Positions 2,213 to 64,000 of a DNA stretch of 64,000 bases are shown in pieces. The notes below the pieces were generated by a model that saw nothing but the letters and a program-made list of their open reading frames with translations, was not told the origin of the DNA and ran no database searches. The translations under genes were made by a program, and so were the position numbers. Within the stretch, counting starts at the first letter, position 1. Each line of letters starts with the position of its first letter. The DNA is from Sulfurimonas sp. (lineage in GTDB: Bacteria > Campylobacterota > Campylobacteria > Campylobacterales > Sulfurimonadaceae): positions 1 to 64,000 of the forward strand of contig NZ_JALSKT010000085.1 in NCBI RefSeq assembly GCF_026988655.1. Reading direction: 5' to 3'.

Positions 2213-3568
2213 ATGACGATGGCAGAACAAGAGATTAAAAAATTTGAAAAAACGGACTGTGCAGAAAATTCTGTATTTTATCAAGCAATGGAGGAGGTGA
2301 TATATTCCATCGCTCCATTGTTAGAATCTGATGAAAAATATCTTAAATATGCAATCCTTGAACGTTTGGTAGTTCCTGATAGAATTATAAAATTTAAAGT
2401 GACTTGGTTGGATGACAATAATAATGTGCAGGTAAATACTGGTTATAGAGTGCAGTTTAATAATGCACTTGGACCATATAAAGGTGGACTTCGTTTCCAT
2501 CCAACGGTAAATGAAGGGGTATTAAAATTTTTAGGATTTGAGCAAATACTGAAGAACTCTTTGACGGGATTGCCTATCGGAGGAGGAAAGGGTGGCAGTG
2601 ATTTTGATCCAAAAGGAAAAAGTGATTTTGAGATAATGAAGTTTTGTACTGCGTTTATGAGTGAGCTTTATAAATATATAGGTCCTCGCATAGATGTTCC
2701 TGCTGGTGATATTGGTGTTGGTAGTCGTGAAATTGGTTATCTTTTTGGTGAATATAAAAAAATCACATCTTCTTATGAAGGCGCATTAACAGGGAAGCCA
2801 TACTTCTTTGGTGGCTCTCTTATGCGCCCTGAAGCTACAGGCTATGGTGCAGTTTATTTTACTGGGAGTATGCTTGAGATTGAAGGTAAAGAGCCATTGG
2901 ATGGAAAAATTTGTACGGTAAGTGGTGCTGGAAATGTTGCACTGCATGCGATTGAAAAGCTGCAACAAATTGGAGCTATTGTTGTGAGTTGTTCAGACTC
3001 GCACGGTACTATATATGATCCACGAGGTGTAGACTTAGAACTGTTAAAAACTCTCAAACTTGAGCGCAGAACTTCTTTAAAAGAGTATACTGAAGTACAT
3101 TCTGAAGCAGAATATATTCCAGTTGAGAATTATCCAGAGGGTGCACATGCAGTGTGGAATATTCCATGTTATGCAGCCTTTCCTTGCGCTACTCAAAATG
3201 AGCTTAATGAACTCGATGCGCAAAATCTTATAACTAATGGTTGTGTGAGTGTCACTGAAGGTGCAAATATGCCATCAACTCCTGAAGCAATAGCACTACT
3301 GCAAAGTCATAAGCTCTGCTTCGCTCCGGCTAAAGCCGCCAATGCAGGTGGGGTGGCTGTAAGTGAATTTGAAATGAGTCAAAATGCTTCCATGACAAAA
3401 TGGAGTTATGCAAAAGTAGATGAAAAACTCAAAGAGACTATGCAAATGATATGTAAACGGGTGGCGCTTACTGCCAAAGATTATGGCGTGGAAGGCAATT
3501 ATGTTGATGGTGCAAATATTGCAGGATTTAAAAAAGTTGCAGATGCTATGATAGCAGAAGGAATCTAA
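2213..3568 (+). CDS. gdhA: NADP-specific glutamate dehydrogenase
   Basis: Full-length 451 aa; GPYKGGLRFHPTVNEGVLKFLGFEQILKNSLTGLPIGGGKGGSDFDPKGKSDFE. Confidence 0.95.
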   Translation: MTMAEQEIKKFEKTDCAENSVFYQAMEEVIYSIAPLLESDEKYLKYAILERLVVPDRIIKFKVTWLDDNNNVQVNTGYRVQFNNALGPYKGGLRFHPTVNEGVLKFLGFEQILKNSLTGLPIGGGKGGSDFDPKGKSDFEIMKFCTAFMSELYKYIGPRIDVPAGDIGVGSREIGYLFGEYKKITSSYEGALTGKPYFFGGSLMRPEATGYGAVYFTGSMLEIEGKEPLDGKICTVSGAGNVALHAIEKLQQIGAIVVSCSDSHGTIYDPRGVDLELLKTLKLERRTSLKEYTEVHSEAEYIPVENYPEGAHAVWNIPCYAAFPCATQNELNELDAQNLITNGCVSVTEGANMPSTPEAIALLQSHKLCFAPAKAANAGGVAVSEFEMSQNASMTKWSYAKVDEKLKETMQMICKRVALTAKDYGVEGNYVDGANIAGFKKVADAMIAEGI

Positions 3569-3573
3569 ACGCA

Positions 3574-5424
3574 GTGAAACAGATACTAATAGCTTTTATA
3601 CTTTTTTTTCTTACACTTAATTTAAACGCAGCTGTTAAATACAGTCCATTTTTAGATAAACAAATAGAGCTTAATTTACAACTCAATGAAAACAATTTGT
3701 CCCAAGAGCGTATTCGTGAGTTGATTGAGAAACAGGAAAATTTATATGAAAAGCAACTCTACAAAATTATGTCTGACAAACAGAAATATATTGACAATGG
3801 CATGGTTGTACAAGATATAAATTCAAAAATCTTTTCACTCAAAAAAATAATAGCCATAAATAAACGAGCAGGAAATAGCTATGCTGTTTTACGTGATGAG
3901 GTGCAATTAAAATCTTATATCTTAGTAAAATATCAAAATAATTTGTTTAAGAATGTACTGATGGCACTTGATCTGCCAAGTTTAGAAGAATTTGAAAAAA
4001 AATTATCTTCTTATATTGTTGATGAGCAAAAGAGAGTTTTGCAGTTAACGAAGAGAGATTATGACAAATATTTGAACTTGCAAGAATCTTCGAGTGTAGT
4101 AAAAGCATTAAAGGAAAATATTAGAGAATTTCATGCTTTACAGGATATTCATAGTGATATGATAAGTTATATTTACAAGTTTGAAAACAAGATGTATAGA
4201 CTTAATAAATACTATACTTTTCATGTAATGGGTCTTGTAGTTTATCTTGAGTCTTTTCACTTTGTACAAAATATAAATTTTATTTTAGAACCTTATGGAT
4301 TGAGTATCATTAAAATCTTGATTATGATTTTTTTAACACTTATTATTTATGGCTTCAGAAAAGTTGTTTACGTTTCTATCCAAAGGGGCTTTTCAAAAAT
4401 TGATTTTTTAGAAGAATATTCTGACATTATTCTCTCTAAACTTAAAATCACTATTGAAACCTTGGTTATTGTTATAAATATAAATATGTTGATTTATGTC
4501 TACAATGATTTTAGTGCGGTAGATGTTCTCTCTCGTGCATTTAACATTATTTATGGTGTTTATTTTACGCTTATTGTTTATATTTTAGTAAATACTGTCG
4601 CTGCCATTAAGTTGAGTAGTTTTGATGCGGTATCTACCCCGATTAAAAGTGAACTTATTAACGTTGGTATTAAAATCATTAACTTTATTATTATTATTAT
4701 CGGGATATTGATTGCCCTTTATTTTGCAGGTGTTGATCTGACTGCAGTGCTATCAGGTCTTGGGATTGGTGGTTTTGCTGTTGCCTTTGCAGCAAAAGAT
4801 ACAATATCGAATTTTTTTGGAACGCTCTCTATACTTTTTAGTAATGTTTTCTCTCAAGGAGATTGGATAGAGATAGATGGGAATGAAGGGGTGGTTGTAG
4901 AGATTGGTTTGCGTGTAACAACGATACGGACTTTCGATAATGCACTTATAGCAATCCCAAATGGTACCTTTGCTTCTAAAGATGTAAAAAACTGGAACAA
5001 AAGAAAACTTGGACGACGCATTAAAATGAATCTTGGAGTCAAATATGATTCTAAAATAGAAGACATTAACAAGGCCATTGTTGAGATACGAGATATGCTA
5101 CAAGATCATCCTGATATTGCAACACAAAATACAAAATATGTACATCAAAATCCAGCTTATGGGCATAGTGTCAAGCTTGTGTCAAAAGATGACTTAGAAG
5201 GGGTGAAAAAGACTCTTTTAGTATACTTGGATGAGTTTAGTAGTTCAAGTATAAATATCTTAGTTTATTGTTTTTCAAAATCTGTTGCATGGGAAGAGTG
5301 GCTTGCCACAAAACAAGATATTATGGAAAAAATTATGGAAATAATGGAGAAAAACTCTTTAGAATTTGCTTTTCCTTCTTTATCTATTTATAACGAAACG
5401 CAGCAAAAGTCTATTGGCTCATAA
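3574..5424 (+). CDS. MscS-family mechanosensitive ion channel
   Basis: GLGIGGFAVAFAAKDTISNFFGTLSILFSNVFSQGDWIEIDGNEGVVVEIGLRVTTIRTFDNALIAIPNG. Confidence 0.9.
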   Translation: MKQILIAFILFFLTLNLNAAVKYSPFLDKQIELNLQLNENNLSQERIRELIEKQENLYEKQLYKIMSDKQKYIDNGMVVQDINSKIFSLKKIIAINKRAGNSYAVLRDEVQLKSYILVKYQNNLFKNVLMALDLPSLEEFEKKLSSYIVDEQKRVLQLTKRDYDKYLNLQESSSVVKALKENIREFHALQDIHSDMISYIYKFENKMYRLNKYYTFHVMGLVVYLESFHFVQNINFILEPYGLSIIKILIMIFLTLIIYGFRKVVYVSIQRGFSKIDFLEEYSDIILSKLKITIETLVIVININMLIYVYNDFSAVDVLSRAFNIIYGVYFTLIVYILVNTVAAIKLSSFDAVSTPIKSELINVGIKIINFIIIIIGILIALYFAGVDLTAVLSGLGIGGFAVAFAAKDTISNFFGTLSILFSNVFSQGDWIEIDGNEGVVVEIGLRVTTIRTFDNALIAIPNGTFASKDVKNWNKRKLGRRIKMNLGVKYDSKIEDINKAIVEIRDMLQDHPDIATQNTKYVHQNPAYGHSVKLVSKDDLEGVKKTLLVYLDEFSSSSINILVYCFSKSVAWEEWLATKQDIMEKIMEIMEKNSLEFAFPSLSIYNETQQKSIGS

Positions 5425-6576: not shown

Positions 6577-7340
6577 TGAATAATGAAAACCAAATATCTA
6601 AACAAACGAAACTGTTTGGATATATAGGTGAACATGCGGGCAATAGTAGTTTTAGTGCAAAACTGAACAAAACGTTTAAGCAAAACAGTGATGATACAAT
6701 GATAATTCCTATGAATATTAGAGCAGATGATCTTTATTTTACTTTTTCAAATATGAAAAAATCCCATGTAAATGGTGCTGTTATATCGAGTGAATATGTA
6801 GCAGATGTAGTAGATACTTTAGATGATGCTTCTTCCTTAGTCAAACGCAGTGGCATGTGCGATATTATCTATAAAGAGGGAGAAACCTTACGTGGTGATA
6901 TATTTAGCATACGTGTATTAACTGAAAAACTCAAAGATATGTTTATCTCAAAAATTGCTATCATTGGAATAAATCATTACGCAAAAGCATTTTCATTTTT
7001 AGCTTGTGGTTTTCATCTGAGTTATTTTCATGATAATCTAGAAGAGTTGATGCGTTTTACTAAAGATGTAGAGCTTTCAAAGGCAGATATAAATAGAATA
7101 GCTGAAGATATGCATGTTGATTTATCAGCCTATGATGCAGTTCTAGATTTCTCAGATATGGGTGCGCTTAGTATGGTAGATAGATTACCAAAATTTGCAT
7201 TTGATATGAAAAATAAAAAACAATTTTCTCCTTTAAAGCAAAGAGCATTAGAACTTGGAAGTGAGTATATCGCTTATGATGATATGCTAGAAGATTTAAC
7301 ACAAAAAGCATATAGTGAAATTACGAGGTTTAAAATATAA
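6573..7340 (+). CDS. Shikimate-dehydrogenase-like (AroE-fold) protein lacking recognisable catalytic motifs
   Basis: N-terminus KLFGYIGEHAGNSSFSAKLNKTF resembles AroE KxFGVIGxPxxHSxSPxxHN; ORF called from 6558, ATG at 6573 more likely. Confidence 0.5.
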   Translation: MMNNENQISKQTKLFGYIGEHAGNSSFSAKLNKTFKQNSDDTMIIPMNIRADDLYFTFSNMKKSHVNGAVISSEYVADVVDTLDDASSLVKRSGMCDIIYKEGETLRGDIFSIRVLTEKLKDMFISKIAIIGINHYAKAFSFLACGFHLSYFHDNLEELMRFTKDVELSKADINRIAEDMHVDLSAYDAVLDFSDMGALSMVDRLPKFAFDMKNKKQFSPLKQRALELGSEYIAYDDMLEDLTQKAYSEITRFKI

Positions 7341-10211: not shown

Positions 10212-11330
10212 CTATCGTTTCCAGTTATAATATTTTAAATTTGCATTTGCCAATACACCAACACCTTCTGCTCGGCCAATAAAGCCAAGTTTTTCAGTAG
10301 TAGTTGCTTTGACATTCACTCTTGCTTTATCTATATGTAAAAGCTCTGCGATCACTTTTCTCATTTCATTTTTGTACTTAGCAATTCTTGGTTTTTGTGC
10401 TGCTATTGTGATATCTACATTCACAATAATAAAACCATAATTGTAAAGTTTATTGACTACACGTGAAAGAAGTTCTTTTGAATCTATTCCCTTATATGCG
10501 TCATCATTGTCAGGAAATAACATCCCAATGTCACCCATTCCCGCAGCACCTAAAAGTGCATCTATAAGAGAATGAAGTGCTACATCCCCATCACTATGGG
10601 CTTTAAATCCAAACTCACTCTCTATCTTCACGCCGCCAAGAAACATTTCACCTTTATCATCAAAAGCATGCACATCAAAGCCATTACCACTTAAAATATC
10701 AGATGATGGTGCTTCAAGACATGGTAATTTATTGAGATCATGTGTGTATGTGATTTTATGCGCCTCTTCATCGCCTGTAACAAATACTCTTGTTCCTCCA
10801 AACGCAGTGATTGCACTACTTTCATCTGTGAACTCTTCTTTTGTTTGTAATGATGATTTTAAAATGGAAGTTTTTGAGAGTTGAGGGGTTTGGATACGTT
10901 TTACTTTATCTCTATCTATTGTTTTATCTTCATAAACTATAGTATCTGTTACTTTTAAAAAAGGAACAATAGAATCAGCATCATTTTTACAGCTAATGAT
11001 TCTGTTTAAGAGCTCTTTGTTAATACAAGCTCTTGCAACATCACTTACTAAAACATAATCACTCTCTACTGCGTTTAAAGCATTTTTAAGGGATTGTTGT
11101 CGCGTATTTCCACCTGTAATAAAGGTATAGTCTGCATAATTTTGCATAAAAGGAATTTCATCTGCCGTCGAGACGATGATAATCTTAGTAAAGAGTTTAG
11201 TGCTGTAAAAATTGTCTGCCACATACTGCCATAAAGGCTTGTGAGCGATTCGGAGCCACTGTTTTTTAACATTCATGTCAAAACGACTAGAGCTACCTGC
11301 TGCTAAGAGTACAAGTGTTAAATCGGGCAA
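10212..11330 (-). CDS. ispDF: Bifunctional IspD/IspF isoprenoid biosynthesis enzyme
   Basis: IspD (LVLLAAGSSSRF) fused to IspF (GNGFDVHAF...GGVKIESEFGFKAHSDGDVALHSLIDALLGAAGMGDIGMLFPD). Confidence 0.95.
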   Translation of the reverse strand: MPDLTLVLLAAGSSSRFDMNVKKQWLRIAHKPLWQYVADNFYSTKLFTKIIIVSTADEIPFMQNYADYTFITGGNTRQQSLKNALNAVESDYVLVSDVARACINKELLNRIISCKNDADSIVPFLKVTDTIVYEDKTIDRDKVKRIQTPQLSKTSILKSSLQTKEEFTDESSAITAFGGTRVFVTGDEEAHKITYTHDLNKLPCLEAPSSDILSGNGFDVHAFDDKGEMFLGGVKIESEFGFKAHSDGDVALHSLIDALLGAAGMGDIGMLFPDNDDAYKGIDSKELLSRVVNKLYNYGFIIVNVDITIAAQKPRIAKYKNEMRKVIAELLHIDKARVNVKATTTEKLGFIGRAEGVGVLANANLKYYNWKR

Positions 11331-11527: not shown

Positions 11528-12934
<1,407 letters not shown>

Positions 12935-14458: not shown

Positions 14459-16273
14459 TTATTCTACAGTAACACTTTTAGCAAGATTTCTAGGCATATC
14501 AACATCATTCCCAAGTCTTACAGAAATTTCAAGTGACAATATTTGTACTACAACCATCATCTCAAAAAATTCTAACATATAATGACTTTGTGGCTGCGTT
14601 TGAATATAATCATCTGCCTTATCAAATACTAAAGGAGAGATGGCACAGATAGTTGCATCTCTTGCACTTAGCTCTTCTACATTACTTTTTGATTTTTCAT
14701 ATAATAAATGCTCGGGAAGTAGGGCAATAGTGAACAACTCAGGATCAGCAAGTGCGATTGGACCATGCTTCATCTCACCACTTGGATAGCCCTCAGCATG
14801 CAAGTATGATATCTCTTTAAGTTTTAGGGCACCCTCAAGTGCAAGTGGATAAAAAAGATCTCTTCCTATAAAAAAGAAACCATGTCCATGAAGATATCTT
14901 TTTGATAAACGCTTGATACGTTCATGCATAGAGTCTTCAACTTTTACACTTCTAGGAACTTCTCGAAGAAGAGCTATCTGTTTTGCTATCTCTTGGGCAT
15001 CAAGTGTATTTCTTAGTTTTGCTACATAGAGTGAAAGCATCCAAAAAACCACAACTTGTGTAGCAAATGCTTTGGTAGAAGCCACACCTTTTTCAATCCC
15101 TGCACGAGTTAATATACTTGCATCTGCGATGCGAACCATAGAAGAGTTGTCAACATTACAGATTACAAGAGTTTTCAAACCTGCATTTTTTGCCATCTTT
15201 AAAGTCTCTAAAGTATCGGCTGTCTCACCACTTTGTGAGATAACGACAAAAAGGGTATCTTTTGTCATAATAGGTTCACGGTAACGAAACTCAGAAGCAA
15301 CTTCAACGGAGGTTTTTACTTTTGAGTAGCGTTCAAACATATATGAAGCTGTAAGTGCTGAGTGATACGAAGTACCACAAGCACAAAGTTTGATTTCATT
15401 GATACCATCAAAAAGTGAGCTGTCTATTTCATCTAAAATGATTTCATTTTCGCTCAGACGTCCAAGGAGTGTATCAACAATCACATCACTTTGTTCATAT
15501 ATCTCTTTTTCCATGAAGAAACGGTAGCCATCTTTTTGTGCAGAGAGTTTGTTTGTTGAGAGTTTTGTAAAGATAGGCTCTCTTTGTGTATCATTTTTGT
15601 CAAATATAACAATTTTCTCAGGAGTAACATAACCGTAATCTCCATCTTCAAAGTAGTTAACATCACTACAATGCCCAATAAGAGGTGTGTCTGATGAAGC
15701 AAAGTATTTTTCATTTTCTGTGTTGATACCAACAAGCATTGGTGAACCGTTTTTTGCAAAAAAGATTCTTTCATCTTCACCTTTTGTTACAAGTAAGATA
15801 GCGTACGCACCTTCAAGCTCAGAGATAGTTTCTTTAAAGGCTTCAAAAGCATCAGCACTCTTCTTTAATTTTTCCTCAAAGAGATGTACTATAACTTCTG
15901 TATCTGTTTGACTTAAAAAGTGAACACCTTTTTCTTGTAACTCTTTTTTAAGTTCTGCATAGTTTTCAATGATACCATTGTGGACAACATAAGAGCTGCT
16001 TCCAACATGAGGATGCGCATTAAGTTCTGTAGGTTTTCCATGTGTAGCCCATCTTGTATGTCCAATACCGACAGCGAATTTATCAGTTACAAAATCTTTT
16101 GTTTTGTCTTCGAGATTAACGAGTTTTCCGACAGCTTTAAAGCTTGAGAAATTGTTATCGCTTAAAATGGCGATACCTGCTGAATCATAGCCTCTATATT
16201 CGAGCTCTTTAAGCCCCTCTAATAAAATCTCTTTTGTGTTCTTTTTTCCTAAATAACCGACAATTCCGCACAT
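14459..16273 (-). CDS. glmS: Glutamine-fructose-6-phosphate aminotransferase (isomerizing)
   Basis: MCGIVGYLGKKN N-terminus and C-terminal LAKSVTVE. Confidence 0.97.
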   Translation of the reverse strand: MCGIVGYLGKKNTKEILLEGLKELEYRGYDSAGIAILSDNNFSSFKAVGKLVNLEDKTKDFVTDKFAVGIGHTRWATHGKPTELNAHPHVGSSSYVVHNGIIENYAELKKELQEKGVHFLSQTDTEVIVHLFEEKLKKSADAFEAFKETISELEGAYAILLVTKGEDERIFFAKNGSPMLVGINTENEKYFASSDTPLIGHCSDVNYFEDGDYGYVTPEKIVIFDKNDTQREPIFTKLSTNKLSAQKDGYRFFMEKEIYEQSDVIVDTLLGRLSENEIILDEIDSSLFDGINEIKLCACGTSYHSALTASYMFERYSKVKTSVEVASEFRYREPIMTKDTLFVVISQSGETADTLETLKMAKNAGLKTLVICNVDNSSMVRIADASILTRAGIEKGVASTKAFATQVVVFWMLSLYVAKLRNTLDAQEIAKQIALLREVPRSVKVEDSMHERIKRLSKRYLHGHGFFFIGRDLFYPLALEGALKLKEISYLHAEGYPSGEMKHGPIALADPELFTIALLPEHLLYEKSKSNVEELSARDATICAISPLVFDKADDYIQTQPQSHYMLEFFEMMVVVQILSLEISVRLGNDVDMPRNLAKSVTVE

Positions 16274-19248: not shown

Positions 19249-20424
19249 ATGGAAAATTTATTTAATGATAAAAAAGCACAAGCCTGCAAGGATGATTTGG
19301 ATTTACGAGTATATACTTCTAATCTTTTAGGACAGGATAATGAGCTTGTTTTACATGGTGGTGGCAATACATCTCTCAAAAGTAAGGTTGGGGGAGAAGA
19401 TATTTTATTTGTCAAAGGAAGCGGTTGGGATCTCTCAGAAATTCAAAGAGAAGGTTTTTCTCCTGTAAGACTTGATGCACTTTTAGAGATGGCAAAAAGA
19501 GAAAGTTTAAGTGATTCTGAGATGGTAAAACTTCAGCGTGAAGCGATGATAGATGAAAAGGCTCCAAATCCTTCTGTTGAAGCCATACTGCATGCTTTAA
19601 TACCATATAAATTTATAGATCATACCCATGCTGATGCTGTGGTGACTATCTCAAACGCAGTAACGGGGAAAGAAAATATCGCAAAACTGTATCCTGATTT
19701 TTTGATAGTTGATTATGTTATGCCTGGCTTTGAGCTTGCACACAGAATTTACGAGATGACAAAAGATCTTGATTGGAAATCTATTGAGGGTATTATCTTA
19801 CATAATCATGGGATCTTTACCTTTGATGATGATGCAAAAATATCCTATGAGAAAATGATAAACGCAGTAGCAAGAGCAGAAAAGTTTTTAGATGAAAATG
19901 CTCTTGTACATATAGAACATAATTATGTACACAGTGAGTGTGACATAGCAAAGATAACGCGTATTTTTTCAGAGATAAAGGGATATGATGTCTCTATTAA
20001 CATCAATCAGTCTCCTTTAGCTGGATTTTATGCCTCTCAGCCTAATCTTAGAGAATTTGCATCACGTGGAGTTTTGACACCTGAGCATATCATCCGCACA
20101 AAAAGAGTTCCTCTTATTATGGAAGATACAGATTTAGAGGGTGGCATCATGAAGTATGCTGAGGCTTATCAAGCTTACTTTAAAGAATTTGCGACTGATG
20201 AAGTGATGCTCAATCCTGCACCAAATTATATGATCATTAAAAATCTTGCACTGATCTCTTTTGGAAAAGATAAACGTGAGGCAGCAATTGTTAATGATAT
20301 AGTAGAACATACTATGCTAGCAGTTTTACGAGCTGATAAGTTAGGTGGTTACAAAAGTATTAGCTTAAAAGATAGTTTTGCGATGGAGTACTGGGAACTA
20401 GAACAGGCTAAATTGAAAAAATAA
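19249..20424 (+). CDS. Class II aldolase/adducin family protein
   Basis: LHGGGNTSLK, FIDHTHADAVVTISNA, IEGIILHNHGIFTF metal-site histidines. Confidence 0.85.
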   Translation: MENLFNDKKAQACKDDLDLRVYTSNLLGQDNELVLHGGGNTSLKSKVGGEDILFVKGSGWDLSEIQREGFSPVRLDALLEMAKRESLSDSEMVKLQREAMIDEKAPNPSVEAILHALIPYKFIDHTHADAVVTISNAVTGKENIAKLYPDFLIVDYVMPGFELAHRIYEMTKDLDWKSIEGIILHNHGIFTFDDDAKISYEKMINAVARAEKFLDENALVHIEHNYVHSECDIAKITRIFSEIKGYDVSININQSPLAGFYASQPNLREFASRGVLTPEHIIRTKRVPLIMEDTDLEGGIMKYAEAYQAYFKEFATDEVMLNPAPNYMIIKNLALISFGKDKREAAIVNDIVEHTMLAVLRADKLGGYKSISLKDSFAMEYWELEQAKLKK

Positions 20425-21831
20425 TAATGAATAAATACCTTATGGCAATAGACGCGGGAACAGGCAGTATCCGCGTTGTTATTTTTGATACACTGGGCAA
20501 TCAAATCACAGCAGCACAAAAAGAGTGGACACACCTAGAAGAAGAGGGTGTGCGTGATTCTATGCGTTTTGACTTTGAAAACAACTGGATTTTAGTGTGT
20601 CAATGTATACAAGAAGCCTTAAACGCAGTAAGCCTAAACGCAGTAGATATTTTAGCTGTGAGTGCAACAAGTATGCGTGAGGGGATTGTGCTTTATGATA
20701 TAGAGGGTCATGAACTCTGGGCTGTAGCCAATGTAGATGCAAGAGCTGCCCAAGAAGTAAAATATCTCAAAGAACATTGTAGTGGTTTGGAAGAAGAATT
20801 TTACCAAATATCGGGTCAAACTTTTGCACTTGGTGCTCTACCGCGTTTGTTATGGCTTAAAAACAATCGTCCTAAGATATATAAAAAAGTCGCACAACTC
20901 TCAATGATAGGTGATTGGATTTTAGCAAAACTCTCAGGTGTCATCGCAAGTGATCCAAGTAATGGCGGCACAACGGGTGTATTTTCCCTTTCTAAACGCA
21001 GCTTTATGAGCGAAATGGCAAAGCAAGTTGGATTAAAAACAGATATCTTCCCTCAAGTTTTAGAAGTAGGGACTCCGATGGGCTTTGTGACATCTAGTGC
21101 GGCTCAAGTAACTGGACTTAGTACAAAAACTCAAGTTGTTATGGGTGGCGGTGATGTGCAGCTGGGTTCTGCTGGACTAGGTGTGGTTGGGGTAAATCAA
21201 GTAGCCATTTTAGGTGGTTCTTTTTGGCAACAAGTCGTCAATATTCCTTCTCAAACGCAGCCACCAAAAGATATGGGCATACGAATAAATCCACATGTTA
21301 TTGCAGGTTTAAGTCAAGCAGAGGGAATTACTTTTTTTAGTGGTTTGGTGATGCGTTGGTTTCGCGATGCTTTTTGTGAACTTGAAAAGCATGAAGCTAC
21401 TAAACGCAGTTGTGATGTATATGAAATTTTAGAAGAAAAAGCCAAAGAAGTTCCCGTAGGTTCCTATGATATTTTGCCAATATTTTCAGACACTATGAAA
21501 TATGGCAAATGGTACCACGCCGCACCAAGCTTTTTAAATCTCAATCTAAACGCAGCAGAGTGTAATCGTGCGGCAATGTTTCGAAGCCTAGAAGAAAATG
21601 CAGCGATAGTTTCAAGTTTAAACCTTCAAAAGATTCAAAAATTTAGTGGCATTGAGATACAAGAGATAGTTTTTGCAGGTGGGGCAAGTAAAGGCGCATT
21701 ATGGTCACAGATACTTGCAGATGTGACTGGCTATAAAGTGAAAATTCCAAAAGTAACTGAAGCGACAGCTTTGGGTGCGGCAATGGCTGCTGGAGTAGGC
21801 TGTGGGATATATACAAGCCTTGCAAACGCAG
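19653..21831 (+). repeat. Dense cluster of AAACGCAG octamers (9 copies inside the aldolase/kinase genes)
   Basis: Copies at 19653, 19860, 20621, 20636, 20994, 21253, 21402, 21548, 21824. Confidence 0.9.
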
Positions 21832-23039: not shown

Positions 23040-23855
23040 TTGATGCATATCACTGTTGTAATTCCCACTTACAATAGATATGAATTTTTAAGACGTGCAC
23101 TCTACTCTGTACTCGATCAAAGCTATGCAGCATCTGAAATCATTGTCGTTGATGATGGTTCTACAGATAATACGGCTTCCATCAAAGAAGAATTTCCACA
23201 AGTAAAATACATCTATCAAAATAACGCTGGAGTCTCTCGTGCACGAAATCTTGGCATTGTAAACGCAGTGCATGAGTGGATAGCGTTTTTAGATTCTGAT
23301 GATACTTGGCAGAGAGATAAACTCAAAGAACAAGTAAACTTTCACCTACAAAACCCTACTATTTTGATGAGTTTTACAGATGAGAAGTGGATTCGTGATG
23401 ATAAGGAAGTGAAAATTCCTAAGAAATTTAAAAAGTATGGTGGAGAGATATTTGAAAAATCTCTCTCTTATTGTAATATTGCCCCTTCTTCTACCCTTAT
23501 CCAGAAAAATCTTTTGGATGAAGTAGGGTTTTTTGATGAGAGTTTAGAAGTTTGTGAAGATTATGATTTATGGCTTCGTATTGCGATGAATTACACTATA
23601 GGTCTTGTGGATAAAAAACTCATCACAAAATATGCAGGACATAATGACCAACTCAGTTTTAAATACTGGGGGATGGATAGATTTCGCGTTTTGGCACTAG
23701 AAAAACTTTTATCTACTTGTGATAATGCTCAGCAAGTTGCACTTATTAAAAAAGAAGCACAGAAAAAGTATACACTCTTACTCAAAGGTGCACAGAAATA
23801 TGATAAAATACTAGAGATTAAAAATTATGAAAAAAAAATAGAGAGCTTTCAATGA
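23040..23855 (+). CDS. Family 2 glycosyltransferase
   Basis: ITVVIPTYNRYEFLRRALYSVLDQSYAASEIIVVDDGSTDNT. Confidence 0.92.
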   Translation: MMHITVVIPTYNRYEFLRRALYSVLDQSYAASEIIVVDDGSTDNTASIKEEFPQVKYIYQNNAGVSRARNLGIVNAVHEWIAFLDSDDTWQRDKLKEQVNFHLQNPTILMSFTDEKWIRDDKEVKIPKKFKKYGGEIFEKSLSYCNIAPSSTLIQKNLLDEVGFFDESLEVCEDYDLWLRIAMNYTIGLVDKKLITKYAGHNDQLSFKYWGMDRFRVLALEKLLSTCDNAQQVALIKKEAQKKYTLLLKGAQKYDKILEIKNYEKKIESFQ

Positions 23856-38499: not shown

Positions 38500-38507
38500 A
38501 TTTTTTC

Positions 38508-40975: not shown

Positions 40976-41102
40976 GTAAGGTACTTAGAGTCTTTGTTGT
41001 TACTTTTTGATACACAGTAAAAATAAGATTGCAATTTTATGCTAAAAATATGAATTGCTACGTTCATGCTATGTTTTGGATTTATGATTAGCCTATCAAA
41101 AA

Positions 41103-42548: not shown

Positions 42549-42562
42549 GAAAAGGAACGATT

Positions 42563-44546: not shown

Positions 44547-44548
44547 TC

Positions 44549-48939: not shown

Positions 48940-48993
48940 TTCTACCGCGTAAAAATGCTATAATTTCATAATTAAATTACTAAGAGAATTATT

Positions 48994-49677: not shown

Positions 49678-49720
49678 GCTAATTGTTATGAAACTCTGAC
49701 TATAATCTCACTCTTCAAAC

Positions 49721-49810
49721 GGACGAGTGGGTGAGTGGCTGAAACCACATCCCTGCTAAGGATGCGTACTGGTAACGGTACCGAGAGTTCGAATCTCTCC
49801 TCGTCCACCA
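49721..49810 (+). tRNA. tRNA-Ser (anticodon GCU), encoded CCA
   Basis: Acceptor GGACGAG/CTCGTCC, anticodon loop CTGCTAA, long variable arm, T-arm GAGAGTTCGAATCTCTC, terminal CCA. Confidence 0.95.
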
Positions 49811-49910
49811 CCAAAACAATCCCCAAAATTCATACTGTACCTAAGTACAATACCAATAAATTTTTCATTGTCCTATAATTTTCCTAATTCAATAGTTTTA
49901 GGAGTTTTTT

Positions 49911-52900
49911 ATGTCAAAAGTAATCGGAACAGTTTCAAGTATAGATGGTACATTCTATGTAAAAGCAGCAGACGGATCTTTACGTGAATTGTCAGAAGGC
50001 GATAAAATTCATGAAGGTGAAGTAGTTGTTGGAGCCGACTCTAATACTCCTAGAGATAGCCTAATCTTGGCAATGGCTGATGGTACAGACCTTATCCTTC
50101 TTGGAAATAATCAACAGTTATTTGATGCTTCTTTAGCCCCTGATATTTTTGCAGAAGATGAAGTCGTTAGCAATATTGATTCAATTGAAACTCTTGTAAA
50201 TGATGATGCTTTTAATGAAGATAATATAGAAACATCTTATGGTAACGACACTAAATCAGTTTCAACTCTTGATGCAGCTACCGAATTTGACACAATAAAT
50301 ACACACACAGAGACTCTTAATACAACATTACGTAATATAGAACAGGATACAAGTACGGTTGCAACTGCAATTGGAAGTGAAAATATTATTTTAGATGTCA
50401 ATAGAGAACATTTACTTAGTGAGCTTTCTATTGTTCAGAAAAACGTAGCAGACCTAACAGAGGCAGCAAACACTGCAGCCCAAACAGCAACAGATGCAGC
50501 CCAAGCAGCCGATCAAGCCGCAACTACAGCAGCAACAAACCCAACTCCAGCAAACCTAGCAGCCGCAGAAGATGCACAAGCTACAGCAACTGAGGCAGCC
50601 ACAGCAGCCACAAACGCAGCCAATACCCTAGATGCCGCAATTAATACTCTTAGCGTTGCAGCAGATGCAGCAAACGAAACAGTAGATACAAGAGATGCAA
50701 GCCAAGCAGTAGAAGCTGCAACTACAGCAGCAACAACAGCCACAGATGCAGCAGATAACTCTGAAACAAGAATAGACTCAGTAATAGCAACTGATATCCA
50801 AAACGTAGCCGACCTAACAGAGGCAGCAAACACTGCAGCCCAAACAGCAAATGATGCAGCAACAGCAGCAGATCAAGCAGCACAAACAGCACAAGAAAAT
50901 CCAACAGAAGAAAATTTAGCACTTGCTCAGTCTGCGCAAGTAGCTGCAGATAGTGCAGCTGTGAATGCTACAAATGCAGCTTCAACGCTTAGTGCGGCCA
51001 TTGAGACAACAAGTGCTGCTGCAGATGCGGCTGGTGAGAGTGTGAATTTTGATGATGCAAAAGATGCGGTTACACTTGCTACAAATGCGAGTGCTACTGC
51101 AACAGAGTCAGGTACTGCTGTAAATAATAGGATTTCAAATGTTAGCGATAGTGATACAACAGCAAACGCAGTAGATGAGAACGTAGCTGATGGAACATAC
51201 ACAGGAGTAACACTTAGTGCAACAGATGTTGATGGTGATGCGATTACATATTCTCTCCCTGATGATGTTCCATTTAGAGTTGAAGATGATGGTAGAGTTG
51301 TCGTAGATGGTAATAATGCAATAGACTTTGAAGCACAAGACAGTTATACATTTACAGCAACTGCTACGAGTGCAGATGGAACGAGCTCTACGCAAGAAGT
51401 TAGTGTAAGTGTGCATGATATTGTAGAAAATGTTGCTCCAGTTGCTGCAGATGATACGACTACGGCAACTATCGAAATACATTCATCAGGTTATGATGAT
51501 GCATCTTTTAGAACAGAAAATCGAGGTGTAACAATTGATGGTGAGCATGTTGGGGGTAACTACAGAGGTATCACAGTGACAGTTTTAGACGAAGACAACT
51601 CTTTAGTATCTACGCAAACCTTTGATACTTATGGGGATGCATCTGCATCAACAAATTTAGTAGATGCCATTTCAAATTTAGACAATGTGGAAGATGCTTC
51701 TAAAGTAATTATTACAACATCAGATGAATGGACACGTCAACTTAGTGATGATGCAAAAGATGCTTTAGTAAGTATTGGTGCTGATAGAGAGGTATTAGAT
51801 AGTGCAGATTTTAGAAGTTCTTTCCTTTTAGAAAGTGAGCATGAAGGAGATAGCTGGAGTGTAAAAGATCAAGAGTATGCACCAAGATATGATGATAATG
51901 GACTTTCAACTACTTTAGGTAGTTTAGAAACTGATGAAGATAGTGCAATAACTATAGATGTCCTAGCAAATGATACAGATGCAGATGGAGATACCTTAAG
52001 TATCACAAAAATTGAAGGTCAAGATGTAAGTGATGGTAAAGAAGCAACTATAAAAGACAGTGATGGTAACGAACTAGGAACTGCAAAACTTACAGATGAT
52101 GGAAAAGTCTCTTTTACTCCAAGCGAACATCTCCAAGAGATGAATGATGGAGAGAATCAAGATGTAACATTTAGCTATACGGTGAGTGATGGTCAGGCAG
52201 AATCAACTGCGAATGTTACTGTTAATGTTACTGGAAGTACGGATAATTATGCTCCTGAAGCAAGTGATGATGTAACAAGTGCTATTAAAGTAAATAGTAC
52301 AGGAACTGATGGTGCTTTAGTATTGGATAGCAGAGGTGATAATCCTGATTTACTTGGTGGAGCAACTTCTGTTGATCTTACTATAAGTCTAACTGGTGAA
52401 GCAGATCAAGGTCAAGCATCAGTATTCTCATATGCTTCTGAAGGAAATACAGGTAATGAGTTCTTAGTATTTAGTGATGGTAATAATGTAAAATTATATA
52501 TCGATGGAGCTAATGTAAATACAGGTATTACAAGTAATGAACTTTTTGATGATGAGCAACATGAATTTAGTGTTTCATGGGATAGTGCAACAGGTGAAGC
52601 AAAGTTTTATCTTGATGGAAATTTAGAGGGAACACAGACTATAGGACAAGGTCACACTATCGATAGTGATGGTGTTCTTATGTTGGGTCAAGAACAAGAT
52701 AGTGTTGGTGGAGGATTGGATACTAATCAAATATTTCAAGGTGAATATCAAGATGTAGCTATCTCAGTAGATGGTTCACCAGTTGCTCATTGGGATATGA
52801 ATGGTGTAGCCTCTGATGGAAGCATAAAAGACAGTGTAGGCAATTTTGATTTAACCACTACAGGTGATGTAACAGCTGCAGGTCAAAATATCACAACTGA

Positions 52901-55568: not shown

Positions 55569-56190
55569 TTAAAAGTAAAATAAGAGAAACTCTATCATTA
55601 ACGTGAAGTTTTGAAAAGACAGAACCTATGTGGGCTTTTACGGTTCTTGGAGTGATGTGAAGCTCATTGGCTATAGCATCGTTTGTCAGACCCTGAAGCA
55701 CAGCATAAACTACTTCTTGTTCTTTAGCTGTTAGTCTGCGTTGTATCAAACTTTGTGCTTCTTGAGAGATGTTTTGTTGGCGTAGATTCTTTGTGAGGGC
55801 TAGTGTCAGCTCGGGGTAGGTCCATACTTTATCATCTTCAACTGCTTCTATCATTTGTTCATAATGCATTTTTAACATTCTGGAATTTCCATAGGCTTTT
55901 ACACCTTTAGATATAAGCATTTTTCCTGTAATAATTTCAGGAACTCTCTCTAAAACTATTACTCTTTGTGGCAACAAGTTTGCAGCTATCATTTTGTTGA
56001 TACTGTGTGATACAGTGTCATAATCCGCCACTATGATATATTTATCTAGTTCTTTTACTGCGTTTAGAAGTGCATCACACTCATCAAAATCTAAAGTATT
56101 GTCAAGCCCATGACGCATTTTCCATTCACTTATCATATCCATATCTGTACTTAAAAATATAGTTTGCATCTTATCTCTCCGAAAAGACAT
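55564..56190 (-). CDS. LuxR-family transcriptional regulator
   Basis: LTAKEQEVVYAVLQGLTNDAIANELHITPRTVKAHIGSVFSKLHVNDR. Confidence 0.88.
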   Translation of the reverse strand: MSFRRDKMQTIFLSTDMDMISEWKMRHGLDNTLDFDECDALLNAVKELDKYIIVADYDTVSHSINKMIAANLLPQRVIVLERVPEIITGKMLISKGVKAYGNSRMLKMHYEQMIEAVEDDKVWTYPELTLALTKNLRQQNISQEAQSLIQRRLTAKEQEVVYAVLQGLTNDAIANELHITPRTVKAHIGSVFSKLHVNDRVSLILLLR

Positions 56191-57508
56191 ACTGTTTTGA
56201 TTTGAGTATAGGTTTTAGGATGTATTGCATTACCGTTTTCTTCCCTGTTACTATGTCAGCACTTGCAGTCATTCCAGGAATGATTTTGAGTGGGTGTGTA
56301 TCTGAACCAAGATGGTTTTTTTGGGTTGCGACATGAATAATGTAGTAAGTACTGTCTTTTTTATCTGTTATGGTATCTGGAGATATATCAACTACCTTCC
56401 CTTTAAGCCCACCATGAATAGCAAAGTCATAAGCCGATATCTTTATCATAGCTTCCGCCCCAGGATGAATAAAAGCAATATCGCTTGGTTTGATTTTTAT
56501 CTCAACATACAGCTTTTTACTCGTAGGTACGATCTCAACTAAGTCTTGTCCTGGTTTTACAACCCCACCGACGGTATTGACAAAAAGTTTTTGAACGATT
56601 CCCTCGACTGGTGACTTGACTACAGTTCGGTTGACTTGGTCTGTGTAAGCAATCTGCTGCGTTTGAATTCTTGAGAGTTCTGCTGTTACTTTATTCAACT
56701 CTTTTTTTGCTTTATTGATGAACTCTTGTTTGGATTCTATACGTTTGCTTCTGTACTCTTGTATAGCAGACTGTAGTCTTGGGAGTGATAGCTTGGCAGC
56801 TTCGATGTCATTTTCGATGCCATTGGCTTCGCGTTTTAGTTTGAGAAAATCTACTTTTGATTTTACACCTTCACGTACCATAGGAGCAGTCATAGCTATC
56901 TCTTCTGTAACATATTCTAATGATTTTTCAAGAGATTTGATCTTAGCTTTTGCCTCTTTAAGCTCTTGTTTTCTTTGCTCTATTTGGTTGACTATAGCAT
57001 TGTCTTTTGCCAAGATTTCTATCTTGTCAGATTCATACAGCTGTTTTGCTAACTTCATTTGTCTCTTTAGCTCTTCATCTTGTGTTTTTATCTCTTTAAA
57101 GTTGAAGTTATTTGCTTCTGCAGAGAGTCTAGCCTTTTTAGCGAAAAGCTCAGCATATTTCATTTGGTTTGTTTCGCTACTTGAGAGTGATTTTGCATTG
57201 TTTATTTTTAGAAGTACTTGTCCTTTTTTAACAGCTTCTCCCTCTCTGACTAAGATTGATTCAACGATTCCCCCTTCAAGATTTTGTATAACTTGGTTTT
57301 GACCATAAGGCACTACTTTACCATTGCCTCTTGTTACTTCATCTATCTCGGCAAAAGAAGCCCATATGATTGCTACTAAAAGTGTAAAGAGCCATATCTT
57401 AAGAACAATGCTCATACGTGAAGGTGACTGTTGCAACAGCGCAGCGCTCATTGAATTCATAAACTCATAATCTTTTTCATCGAATTTTGCAGGTTTATTT
57501 TTTGCCAT
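56171..57508 (-). CDS. HlyD/LapC-type T1SS periplasmic adaptor
   Basis: GNGKVVPYGQNQVIQNLEGGIVESILVREGEAVKKGQVLLKI; VKSPVEGIVQKL; likely start MAKNKPAKF at 57508. Confidence 0.92.
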   Translation of the reverse strand: MAKNKPAKFDEKDYEFMNSMSAALLQQSPSRMSIVLKIWLFTLLVAIIWASFAEIDEVTRGNGKVVPYGQNQVIQNLEGGIVESILVREGEAVKKGQVLLKINNAKSLSSSETNQMKYAELFAKKARLSAEANNFNFKEIKTQDEELKRQMKLAKQLYESDKIEILAKDNAIVNQIEQRKQELKEAKAKIKSLEKSLEYVTEEIAMTAPMVREGVKSKVDFLKLKREANGIENDIEAAKLSLPRLQSAIQEYRSKRIESKQEFINKAKKELNKVTAELSRIQTQQIAYTDQVNRTVVKSPVEGIVQKLFVNTVGGVVKPGQDLVEIVPTSKKLYVEIKIKPSDIAFIHPGAEAMIKISAYDFAIHGGLKGKVVDISPDTITDKKDSTYYIIHVATQKNHLGSDTHPLKIIPGMTASADIVTGKKTVMQYILKPILKSKQYVFSER

Positions 57509-59666: not shown

Positions 59667-61022
59667 TTACTTACTTCCTTTTGTTGTTGTAGCTTGTTTG
59701 ATGACTTTCAATCCTACTTTTGCATATACATTAGCATCATCTTGCATTAAAGTATTTACTAAAATTCCCATCGTGTCTAGGATTTTATACTTAGATGAGA
59801 GGATGCTGTACTTTGCCGTAATGATCTGTTCTTGCGAGCGAATCAGGTCATTTTGCGTTGAAAGTAAGTCGAGCAGTGAACGACGACCAAGAGAATATTC
59901 TTTATTGTATAAATCAAGTGTTTGAATTGAAAATTTGTTATATTCTTGTAAGTGCATCAATTGCTCTTGTACTTTTTCATTGGATGCCCATGCTAAGCTC
60001 AGTGTCTCGATAATTTGTCTTTTTGCATTGTTTTTATTTTGTGCTTCTTGTTGCACTTGATAAAAACTTTTTGCTATGGCTGACTTGTCAGAAAAACCAT
60101 TAAAGATATTGTAAGAGAGATAAGCCATCGCACGAAACGCATCATTGTTACCTTCTATGCCACTGAGGTTTTTATTCATAGATTGTGAGATTTCTATATC
60201 TATTCTAGGATAGTAATATGATTTTTTCTCTTTATTTGTCGCTTGGGCAAGTTTGATATTGAGTTCACTGACTAAAAGGGAAGGGTTGTTTTGTAAAGCA
60301 AACTCAAGTGCATCCTTTTTTGATTTGGGGATTTTGACATTCATATCAGGCTTTGTCATTTTTGTATGATCAAGTGTATGACCTAAAAGTTTTTGCAATG
60401 CAAAAGACTTTTCTAAAATAGTATTTTCTTGCACAACAAGGTTAGCTTTTGCAAGGGCTAGTGATGATTCTATCTTACTGACTTCAGAAAGAGTTGTAAG
60501 ACCTGATTTGTAAATCTTTCGTACTTTGCTCAGTATATCTTCATCTATTTGTACATTTTTTTGTGCTGTTTTTAAAAGTTCTTCATTTTTTAATACTTCA
60601 AGGTAAGCATTAGCAACCTCGTAAGTAGTGTTATTCACTTTTTCTACGTAACTATAGGCTGCAGCTAGAGTTCTGTACTCTTGTTCTTCGAGTTGGTAGG
60701 TCGTAGAGAAACCATCAAAGAGGTTTTGTGTAAGTTTGAGGGAGTTTTGATATACAGTAAAATTATATGTTTGATCATCTGTTCCACCAGCTTGATTACT
60801 GCGTTTGGTTCTCTCATACCCAGCACCAAGATTTAAGTCTAGTTTAGGGTAGTAGCCAGATTTCGCACTTTGAATATCTTGCTTTGTTGCTTGAAAATTG
60901 TTTAGTCTTTCTAATACAATAGGATTTGTTGACAATGCTTCACTAATGGTACTTTTTATATCTTGGGCTTGCAAAGATACTAACAGTGAAAGGGTTAAAA
61001 ATATATTTCTTTTCATTCTCAC
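59667..61022 (-). CDS. TolC-family outer-membrane efflux/secretion protein
   Basis: Signal peptide, SGYYPKLDLNLGAGYE, two OEP repeats. Confidence 0.93.
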   Translation of the reverse strand: MRMKRNIFLTLSLLVSLQAQDIKSTISEALSTNPIVLERLNNFQATKQDIQSAKSGYYPKLDLNLGAGYERTKRSNQAGGTDDQTYNFTVYQNSLKLTQNLFDGFSTTYQLEEQEYRTLAAAYSYVEKVNNTTYEVANAYLEVLKNEELLKTAQKNVQIDEDILSKVRKIYKSGLTTLSEVSKIESSLALAKANLVVQENTILEKSFALQKLLGHTLDHTKMTKPDMNVKIPKSKKDALEFALQNNPSLLVSELNIKLAQATNKEKKSYYYPRIDIEISQSMNKNLSGIEGNNDAFRAMAYLSYNIFNGFSDKSAIAKSFYQVQQEAQNKNNAKRQIIETLSLAWASNEKVQEQLMHLQEYNKFSIQTLDLYNKEYSLGRRSLLDLLSTQNDLIRSQEQIITAKYSILSSKYKILDTMGILVNTLMQDDANVYAKVGLKVIKQATTTKGSK

Positions 61023-61149
61023 TCACTTTTTACTTATTTAATAGACAACGATTATATCACGTTCATATTGCAAATACAATACAAATAAGTGACTTATGTT
61101 ATAATAATAGTAAATTAATCATCAAATTTAAACTGGAAATCAAAACTAT

Positions 61150-64000
61150 ATGCAAGCATCTGAAATTAATCAAATATTAAATAACAAAGATAAACTTTTA
61201 ACGCAAGTTTATTTTGATTTACAGCGATTTTTTGAAACGAAGTACGGGCATGACACTGTTGTTTTTATGGAAATAGGCACATTTTATGAAGTTTATGAAG
61301 TAAATAATGAAGAACAACAGATAGGAAAAGCCAAAGAGATAGCAGAACTCTTAAACATTCAACTGACCAAAAAAAATAAAAAAATCATCGACAACTCTGA
61401 GAAAAATCCACTTTTAGCAGGTGTTCCTGCAGTTTCGTTTGAGCGTTATCTTAGCCGTCTTATTCAAGAGCAAAAATATACAGTTATTGTAGTGAGACAA
61501 AAAGGAAATCCTCCTAAAATTAGCCGTTATATCTCTCAAATAGTTTCACCCGGAACAAATTTTGATCATATAGTAGATAATGACGATAACTACATTGTCT
61601 CACTCTTAGTTGATAAGTTTCGTGATATTTATACGGTTGGTTATTCAGCCATTGATGTCACGACTGGGAAAACTTGGCTTTATGAAACACATGGAACAAG
61701 TGAAGACCCCGCGTATGCTTTGGATGAAATATTTAATCTTTTAAATGTTTACAGAACGAGTGAAATCGTAGTGACATTTTTAGAAGGCATAGATGATCAA
61801 CGTCATATTATGCAGTATCTTGAAATCCCTGAACATTATCACTACTCAGTCAATAACAAACGCGTGAGAGTTGACTTTCAAAATGAGCTTTTTAAAGAGG
61901 TGTATCAAATACAGTCTTTACTCTCCCCAATAGAGCATTTAGATCTTGAGCGCTCACCTATGATAACTGAGTCACTTGCGATATTGGTAAACTTTGTTAT
62001 TGAGCATGATTATCACATCATACAAAAGATGGCAATGCCTCGTATCATAGATAATCGTCGTTTTATGTATCTTGGAAACAATGCCCTAGAGCAGATGGGT
62101 ATCATCTCAAAAGATAGAAAAGAGTTTACACTTTTAAAAATGATGGACAAAAGTTCTACGGCGATAGGAAGACGGCTTTTAAAAGAGAGACTGCTTAACC
62201 CCATTATGGAGGTTGGCGAGCTTGAACGTCGATACAACCTTATAGAGAGAGTTTCGTCTCATGTGCGTTATCTTGATGAGATGATGCGTGGTGTGTATGA
62301 CCTTGAGAGATTAGCAAGAAGACTCAATCTAGGAAGATTGCATCCATTTGAGATGAACCATGTTTATGACTCTATGTTGAGTGTTAAAGAGTTGATGCAG
62401 TATGTTAAAAAGTATAAGATTCAAAAAACACCTTTTCATGAGAGTGAAGTTGAAGAATTTTTGCGAGACATTGCAAAAACAATAGACTTGGATGTCTCTC
62501 GAAGATTTACAAACGCAACAGTAGATGAAAACTTTTTGATGAGTGGCGTTGATGAAGCCATAGATACTTTAGTAGAAGAAAATAGTGTTATGTTAGTTGC
62601 TTTTGAAGATATCATCGCTAAGATTAATGCGATGCTTCAGAGTGTAAACGCAGGAAGTGCCAACAAAGTTGTCACACTTGGACTTTTAGAAAAAGAGGGT
62701 TATTACATATCTATAACCAAAAATAGATACGCACTTATAGAGAGTGAATTTAAAAAGAGTGAAGAGTTTGCTGCGTTTAATGTAAAAAAACTAACAAACA
62801 ATGTCAAAATAACCTCTGCTTTTACTGACACACTCTCTGACAATATTATGAAAAACAGACGTAAAATAGTCTCTTTAGTAAAAGAGCGATACATCAAACT
62901 CCAAGCTGTGTATGAACGCCGTTATTCTCTTCTTTTTGATAGAGTCATTAACTATGTAGCAGATTTAGATGTGGGAGTGAGCTCTTCAAAAGTAGCACAA
63001 GCGTACAAACACTCACGTCCGATGGTAGTCGAAGTCAATGAAGATGAAAATTTTATGCAGATCATGCAGCTACGTCATCCACTCATAGAAGTACAAGAAA
63101 GAGGTGGACTCTATGTACCAAATGATATAGTTATGGGCAATCGTGACTATATGGACTTACCACATCCTAAAACTGTTATGCTTGATGTTGGGGTACATGA
63201 TGGGCATGAGATAAATGGCGTACTTTTGTATGGTATCAACTCAAGTGGTAAATCTTCTTTGATGAAAAGTATCGGCATAGCTACCTTGATGGCGCAGTCT
63301 GGATTTTTTGTCAGTGCTGCTGTTATGAAGTTTAGCATTTTTGATTCGCTTTTTACTCGGATAGTTTCAAAAGACAATCTGGCTAAAGGACTTTCAACCT
63401 TTGCGGTTGAAATGCTTGAACTCAAAAATATCTTCAACCGCTCAACTGTGCGTTCATTAGTTCTTGGTGATGAGATAAGTCACGGAACAGAGACACTCTC
63501 TGGTGTAGCCATAGTCGCTTCAGCTATACAAAAACTTGCCGACACTCGTTGTCTGTTTTTGTTTGCAACGCATCTGCATCAACTCTCCTCAATGCAAGAG
63601 ATAAGCGTACTTGATAATGTTGTAAATTTGCATCTAAGTGTTGAGTATGATGAAGAGAGTGATAAATTGATTTTTAACCGTGTCCTACAATCTGGAAGTG
63701 GAAGTAGTATATATGGGCTTGAGTTCGCAAAATCATTGCATATGGACAGTGAGTTTTTAGATAATGCAAACGCAATAAGAAAACGTCTTGCTAATGACTA
63801 TGATGAACTTGAACTTTTAGTGAAAAAGAAAAAGTCTAAATACAACAAAGATTTGTATGTGACGAAGTGTATTATCTGTGGTGCTGTAGCCGAAGATGTG
63901 CATCATATATCACAAAAATCTTTGGCAGATAGTGCAGGGTTTATTGGGCATTTTCATAAAGACAACAAACATAACCTCGTTCCTTTATGTAAAGAACATC
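61150..64000 (+). CDS. MutS7-type MutS homologue with C-terminal HNH nuclease domain (3' end beyond window)
   Basis: FFETKYGHDTVVFMEIGTFYEVYEVN; Walker A GINSSGKSSLMKSIG; LGDEISHGTETLSG; FATHLHQLSSM; terminal CIICGAVAEDVHHISQK...HNLVPLCKEH. Not in the supplied ORF track because no stop falls inside the window. Confidence 0.88.
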   Translation, partial: MQASEINQILNNKDKLLTQVYFDLQRFFETKYGHDTVVFMEIGTFYEVYEVNNEEQQIGKAKEIAELLNIQLTKKNKKIIDNSEKNPLLAGVPAVSFERYLSRLIQEQKYTVIVVRQKGNPPKISRYISQIVSPGTNFDHIVDNDDNYIVSLLVDKFRDIYTVGYSAIDVTTGKTWLYETHGTSEDPAYALDEIFNLLNVYRTSEIVVTFLEGIDDQRHIMQYLEIPEHYHYSVNNKRVRVDFQNELFKEVYQIQSLLSPIEHLDLERSPMITESLAILVNFVIEHDYHIIQKMAMPRIIDNRRFMYLGNNALEQMGIISKDRKEFTLLKMMDKSSTAIGRRLLKERLLNPIMEVGELERRYNLIERVSSHVRYLDEMMRGVYDLERLARRLNLGRLHPFEMNHVYDSMLSVKELMQYVKKYKIQKTPFHESEVEEFLRDIAKTIDLDVSRRFTNATVDENFLMSGVDEAIDTLVEENSVMLVAFEDIIAKINAMLQSVNAGSANKVVTLGLLEKEGYYISITKNRYALIESEFKKSEEFAAFNVKKLTNNVKITSAFTDTLSDNIMKNRRKIVSLVKERYIKLQAVYERRYSLLFDRVINYVADLDVGVSSSKVAQAYKHSRPMVVEVNEDENFMQIMQLRHPLIEVQERGGLYVPNDIVMGNRDYMDLPHPKTVMLDVGVHDGHEINGVLLYGINSSGKSSLMKSIGIATLMAQSGFFVSAAVMKFSIFDSLFTRIVSKDNLAKGLSTFAVEMLELKNIFNRSTVRSLVLGDEISHGTETLSGVAIVASAIQKLADTRCLFLFATHLHQLSSMQEISVLDNVVNLHLSVEYDEESDKLIFNRVLQSGSGSSIYGLEFAKSLHMDSEFLDNANAIRKRLANDYDELELLVKKKKSKYNKDLYVTKCIICGAVAEDVHHISQKSLADSAGFIGHFHKDNKHNLVPLCKEH

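Follow-up and report, generated by a model that had tools for sequence, protein, structure and literature searches.

The window analysed here is a 64-kb stretch of Sulfurimonas DNA (contig C85, NZ_JALSKT010000085.1) from a metagenome-assembled genome (MAG) of 1.97 Mb in 87 contigs, 96% complete and with 3.3% contamination. A search with mqnE assigns the genome to this genus. Dispersed through its genes, which encode among others a glutamate dehydrogenase, an MscS-type channel, an FGGY kinase and the carB and tolC products, is the octamer AAACGCAG, the subject of this report; its 39 copies are listed in Table 1. Shuffling the window 100 times with dinucleotides preserved gave 1.74 copies on average and 6 at most, and AAACGCAG ranks first among all 8-mers of the window by a third-order Markov model, which expects 2.7. 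An earlier note on this DNA, which supposed an origin in Campylobacterota, had located the same 39 copies, with every coordinate and strand right, and had put the chance expectation at 1-2 copies; its pyrimidine flanks, 38/39 at position -1 and 37/39 at +1, were exactly reproduced in our recount. The FGGY kinase gene, with 7 sites, has the highest number per gene among the 974 kb examined at gene level.

Table 1. Copies of AAACGCAG in the 64-kb window (ORF, open reading frame; Y, pyrimidine)
Positions	Strand	Location
2649..2656	-	inside glutamate dehydrogenase gene, antisense
3567..3574	+	glutamate dehydrogenase / MscS gene junction
3624..3631	+	inside MscS-type channel gene
5396..5403	+	inside MscS-type channel gene
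6843..6850	+	inside ORF 6558-7340
10800..10807	+	inside ispDF gene, antisense
11069..11076	-	inside ispDF gene
12574..12581	+	inside ORF 11537-12934; +1 = A, exception to Y
14594..14601	-	inside glmS-like gene
19653..19660	+	inside aldolase-like gene
19860..19867	+	inside aldolase-like gene
20621..20628	+	inside FGGY kinase gene
20636..20643	+	inside FGGY kinase gene
20994..21001	+	inside FGGY kinase gene
21253..21260	+	inside FGGY kinase gene
21402..21409	+	inside FGGY kinase gene
21548..21555	+	inside FGGY kinase gene
21824..21831	+	inside FGGY kinase gene
23261..23268	+	inside ORF 23040-23855
23964..23971	-	inside pgi gene, antisense
24318..24325	-	inside pgi gene, antisense
27496..27503	-	inside glutathionylspermidine-synthase-like gene
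29106..29113	-	inside carB gene
30591..30598	-	inside carB gene
31220..31227	+	inside carB gene, antisense
32980..32987	-	inside ORF 32335-33081
33731..33738	-	inside ORF 33078-33845
36503..36510	-	inside ORF 36120-36905
36767..36774	+	inside ORF 36120-36905, antisense
37547..37554	+	inside ORF 37414-38337, antisense
38345..38352	-	intergenic; inverted pair, left arm
38363..38370	+	intergenic; inverted pair, right arm
50612..50619	+	inside giant repeat-protein gene
51164..51171	+	inside giant repeat-protein gene
56058..56065	-	inside luxR-type regulator gene
56657..56664	-	inside HlyD-family gene
60799..60806	-	inside tolC gene
62646..62653	+	outside ORFs considered; +1 = G, exception to Y
62771..62778	-	outside ORFs considered

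Of the 1.97 Mb, 660 kb entered the frame statistics and 974 kb the gene-level ones, the remaining copies having been found by a genome-wide word search. The excess, which the earlier note had suspected to be genome-wide, is present throughout the genome and far from the chance count: there are 634 forward and 573 reverse copies of AAACGCAG, 1,207 in all, against 16 + 13 = 29 of the reversed word. The 414 sites within the 660 kb give a consensus of about YYAAACGCAGYAA, that is YY-AAACGCAG-YAA, with some 13 bp informative, and T or C flanks the octamer in 93% of them at -1 and in 95% at +1; the Y-AAACGCAG-Y first proposed is therefore right about the flanks and somewhat too short. The best 12-mer, CTAAACGCAGTA, is found 48 times against 0.3 expected. 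In the same set no information is seen more than about 3 bases out from the octamer, so the sites are not pieces of a longer repeat. One-mismatch versions of AAACGCAG are not enriched (0.2-1.2x, with a single variant at 2.1x, n=8), and a near-miss excess does exist for two other words described below, CCACATGCC (about 4.6x) and TTACATGTAA (about 2x).

Coding DNA holds 400 of the 416 sites in the 660 kb, where synonymous-codon shuffles predict 27.4 +/- 4.4. Most of these coding sites fall in two frames, NA[VA] and [TA]AF, and all six frame and strand combinations are enriched, by 9-37x over the shuffles; the enrichment is thus not restricted to one codon frame, and the proposal that selection acts on the DNA and not on codons is borne out. 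Each of the peptide contexts that had been read in the window (NAV/NAA, KRS, QTQ, TAF/AAF, LRL and SCVY) recurs genome-wide. The spacing of the sites is near random (variance/mean 1.15-1.34), and neighbours no more than 60 bp apart comprise 15 opposite-orientation and 17 same-orientation pairs.

The window was also aligned with relatives that are 72-78% identical to it in nucleotides, and other words matched in composition were used as controls. In relatives that use the same word, or dialect as it is called below, the AAACGCAG sites are intact in 8/14, 6/8, 5/16, 8/16, 6/15 and 8/16 cases, compared with 5-15% for the controls; nine relatives at a similar distance that have another dialect or no word keep none of the sites in eight cases and 1/11 in one. 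The corresponding figures for same-dialect pairs are 22-80% against 10-35% for CCACATGCC, with 0 across dialects, and 50-100% against 8-51% for ACATGTAA, with 0 in the other two dialects. The close pair L054-L058 (90% identity) has a site conservation, 11/17, similar to that of its control, 0.51. Overall, in this check, which the earlier note had recommended, the sites are kept in place within a dialect and are nearly absent outside it.

The strongest evidence for a DNA-level signal of the uptake type is the dialect system itself. Alternative words were obtained from k-mer scans of 80 Sulfurimonas loci and then counted in whole genomes, 200 of them from the family. About 20 Sulfurimonas genomes are rich in AAACGCAG, each strand carrying some 100-1187 copies (at most 1187/1144); almost all other genomes of the family show a background of some 10-60 per strand. 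Eight other genomes carry CCACATGCC (full form TTCCACATGCCAA) at 300-724 per strand, the top one having 703/724, and elsewhere it mostly numbers 0-12; five genomes hold TCACGCAG at 190-300 per strand, and in three of these AAACGCAG is at background; Sulfurimonas indica NW8N has five TCACGCAG copies within 11.9 kb; ACATGTAAG/TTACATGTAA is abundant in still other Sulfurimonas species as well as in three more genera. The other dialect words are at background in the AAACGCAG-high genomes. These four words, near-exclusive in their distribution, are lineage-specific dialects. A core ACGCAG is common to AAACGCAG and TCACGCAG, and a core ACATG to CCACATGCC, ACATGTAAG and TTACATGTAA; TTACATGTAA is a perfect palindrome, while AAACGCAG, TCACGCAG and CCACATGCC are non-palindromic. 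CCACATGCC and ACATGTAAG co-occur at a low level in a few genomes (respectively 29/21 and 70/64 in G125, 8/13 and 30/44 in G069), as expected for a transition between dialects. The mqnE sequences of 70 loci give a tree on which the dialects are clustered yet switch repeatedly, with 16 changes against a shuffled mean of 25.5.

A scan of the phylum found up to 1,496 copies of TTACATGTAA in a second family, f10, where the reversed control numbers 1-9; this is probably Sulfurospirillaceae, with Sulfurospirillum as its main genus. About 1,000-1,500 copies of CTTTACATGTAAAG/TTACATGTAA per genome are present in many of the sampled main-genus genomes (G449, G437, G322, G464, G270, G409 and others), and in this family (loci L227-L230) TTACATGTAA is about 7 times denser outside genes, at 0.75/kb intergenic against 0.11/kb coding. 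Sampled genomes of families other than f1 and f10 have TTACATGTAA at background, and the loci sampled from other families contain local repeats only and no comparable word. Words detected in loci L025, L042, L059 and L074 and in some f5, f7 and f11 genomes were rejected as dialects, resembling instead dispersed repeats or tandem arrays. CGTCATTC/GAATGACG, over-represented in Sulfurimonas loci L059, L074 and L057, resemble the terminal repeats of a miniature transposable element. One Sulfurimonas chromosome (G001, locus L197) has 111 forward and 30 reverse copies of AAACGCAG, an asymmetry unlike the other genomes that is possibly due to a tandem array.

AAACGCAG, or about YYAAACGCAGYAA, is thus genome-wide, codon-independent, non-polar (see below), strictly recognised, kept within a dialect and replaced in sister species, and we think it probable that it serves Sulfurimonas, presumably naturally competent, as a word for the uptake of self DNA. 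Among the precedents cited in the earlier note the uptake sequences are the type supported, by the six frames, the site conservation and the words of the sister species; the polarity of a signal like Chi or the FtsK-orienting polar sequences (KOPS) is not seen. An uptake preference, a receptor and a drive by recombination are what we infer from this pattern. DNA bearing the word would be bound by a surface-exposed part of the competence pseudopilus, after which it would be pulled in, pass ComEC and recombine. Word-bearing fragments would be taken up more often, so that recombination would restore and spread intact words and the genome would become biased towards them at every place where the encoded protein allows; a change in receptor specificity would then lead to a slow genome-wide change of dialect.

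Genes that might supply such machinery, among the kinds that the earlier note had suggested looking for, are present in the focal genome. They encode ComEC; an MshE-type ATPase, a secretin and a T2SSF protein on contig C3; a type II secretion-like cluster with pseudopilins on contig C74; and three pilins, whose genes lie between priA and flgB at some 8 kb from comEC. In all, the secretin(s) and T2SSE ATPases are accompanied by about 10 pilin-like genes. The comEC-priA-pilin-flgB segment is syntenic across the genus. Its priA-flgB interval (e.g. L106:2889-4312, L278-L296) holds 2-3 tandem pilin genes beside flagellar rod genes, and these pilin genes vary strongly from species to species and look mosaic. 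The focal genome (G000) has comEC twice, on contigs C22 and C55, in near-alike copies that each contain several AAACGCAG sites; the second copy probably reflects a second strain within the MAG. Also on contig C55, the dnaB gene (L096:12091-14574) has an intein-like insert with Hint and LAGLIDADG homing endonuclease domains (PF05203, PF05204, PF14528); dnaB is about 345 aa shorter in most relatives and similarly long in G146.

Several observations weigh against an uptake word. A same-dialect relative, L052 (5.8 kb), has 0/6 sites intact. The density of one-mismatch words, 0.735/kb, is at the background level of wordless relatives (0.752/kb). One of the four dialects is palindromic, and we know of no uptake-sequence precedent for a palindromic word. 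AAACGCAG is denser in coding (0.66/kb) than in intergenic DNA (0.30/kb), and the 660 kb contain a sole intergenic inverted pair, that at 38345/38363 of the window, both features being unlike DNA uptake sequences (DUS) and uptake signal sequences (USS). The hairpin of this pair (-11.7 kcal/mol, z -2.6) lacks a T tract, and a terminator role for the word was rejected on these two grounds. Word and wordless genomes alike encode ComEC, which is found in 60/60 high-quality genus genomes; its presence therefore cannot discriminate between them and was dropped as a dialect discriminator. The basic pilin between priA and flgB was rejected as the receptor, as it does not track the dialect (partial r -0.11, p 0.89).

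An uptake word has to be weighed against other origins, of which one, in our view unlikely, is an octamer like cyanobacterial HIP1, kept by a chromosomal process such as repair, methylation, folding or replication restart, unrelated to uptake, whose reader protein has changed between lineages. The palindromic dialect resembles HIP1, as do the mostly coding location and near-random spacing of AAACGCAG, and the replication-restart helicase PriA showed a weak tendency to track the dialect. Over 20 genomes PriA gave a partial r of 0.39-0.43 against dialect, with a permutation p<0.0005 at first, weakening under controls to about 0.008 at clade level and about 0.03 with better species control; its distances (L106:637-2511 and orthologues) are below expectation between same-dialect clades. 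Nine genes were tested in these 20 genomes, however, and the signal is lost on correction for that number, so PriA is a lead only as the reader of the word. The fast turnover of dialects from one sister species to another and the strict specificity are moreover typical of self/non-self recognition and not of a housekeeping site.

Less probable still is a methylated self mark, in which an orphan methyltransferase would modify the word and only DNA with the methylated word would be taken up or would escape restriction. Campylobacter jejuni, which takes up DNA with CtsM-methylated sites, provides a precedent in the same phylum, and methyltransferase specificities shift quickly, which would yield dialects. 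Contiguous non-palindromic words of 8-10 bp and a palindrome of 10-14 bp are, however, longer than the usual methyltransferase sites, and restriction-modification normally gives avoidance, not strong enrichment. A polar recombination or segregation signal of the Chi or KOPS type, suggested by an octamer in many copies, is refuted: the polarity check proposed in the earlier note gave 290 sites against 304 relative to GC skew in the focal genome, sites of the palindromic dialect are balanced along a complete genome, and a signal of this type would be expected to be the same in sister species. The least credible origin, to which the two dominant frames might point, is a side effect of codon usage, of a motif in proteins or of a repeat dispersed in the genome; it is refuted by the synonymous shuffles in all six frames, the uninformative flanks and the absence of the word from relatives with similar proteins.

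Two further segments of the window deserve mention. Positions 38371-50611, 12 kb free of AAACGCAG, encode a histidine kinase, an OprD-type porin, an SSF symporter and an acetyl-CoA synthetase-like protein, and are possibly a recently acquired cluster for acetate use. Between 49911 and 61022 an 1,878-aa protein of Ig/cadherin repeats adjoins a HlyD, ABC transporter and TolC set; together they look like a type I secreted adhesin and its exporter.

To our knowledge, the Neisseriaceae and Pasteurellaceae are the only groups with established sequence-specific words for DNA uptake. No earlier report of uptake sequences in Sulfurimonas or Campylobacterota was found in the literature searched, outside which lie preprints and most subscription journals, and within it an uptake-type label for self-recognition looks like a kind new for Campylobacterota. 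If AAACGCAG is such a word, a third, unrelated lineage has its own dialects, and uptake words evolve repeatedly; many species pairs become available for finding receptors by comparing dialects; the word carried sets the bounds within which abundant sulfur bacteria of sediments and vents exchange genes; and adding the right word to transforming DNA becomes a practical way towards genetic tools for these environmental bacteria. A broader idea, which we put forward as possible and rather doubtful, is that two Campylobacterota families evolved dialect words independently of Neisseriaceae and Pasteurellaceae, one of them palindromic and in up to about 1,500 copies, as genome labels of a kind with no characterised member, read by an uncharacterised protein and not necessarily for uptake.

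Among the known systems, Chi and KOPS share with AAACGCAG the many-copy octamer; AAACGCAG has no strand polarity relative to replication. HIP1, the palindromic octamer GCGATCGC of cyanobacteria, is likewise genome-wide and mainly coding, and the TTACATGTAA dialect is also a palindrome; AAACGCAG, TCACGCAG and CCACATGCC are not, and several near-exclusive words occur within one genus. In C. jejuni uptake is limited to CtsM-methylated DNA, a short degenerate motif being read through its methylation (PMC8468864). That species belongs to the same phylum as Sulfurimonas, whose word is by contrast long, exact and enriched. The USS of Pasteurellaceae is a 9-bp word with about one copy per 1-2 kb and two main variants between clades; the Sulfurimonas words are similarly short, of comparable density and variable between clades, but the 414 AAACGCAG sites have no downstream T-tract flank and AAACGCAG is strict at one mismatch. 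Neisseriaceae dialects have degenerate copies in excess, and frequent intergenic inverted pairs acting as terminators are typical of, though not essential for, DUS and USS. Sulfurimonas has few such pairs and no near-miss halo around AAACGCAG, and it differs from both systems in favouring coding DNA, in having few intergenic hairpins and in including a palindromic dialect with a higher density between genes than within them. These differences are real, and membership of either family is therefore not claimed. Eight DUS dialects with a common core, following phylogeny, are described for Neisseriaceae (PMC3630211) and are read by the minor pilin ComP (PMC3630211, PMC3868556). No ComP has been identified for the Sulfurimonas words, though ComP itself was not searched for; the pilin adjacent to comEC did not track the dialect. 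The DUS CTG core in its context is found in none of the ACGCAG words (AAACGCAG/TCACGCAG) or ACATG words (CCACATGCC/TTACATGTAA); Sulfurimonas lies in another phylum and uses another sequence, and neither CCACATGCC nor TTACATGTAA is a simple variant of AAACGCAG. The likeness to DUS lies in a non-palindromic word of about 10 bp, present in hundreds to thousands of copies on both strands, within and between genes, and in dialects whose distribution agrees with phylogeny and whose words vary at a few bases next to a common core, ACGCAG in the case of AAACGCAG/TCACGCAG.

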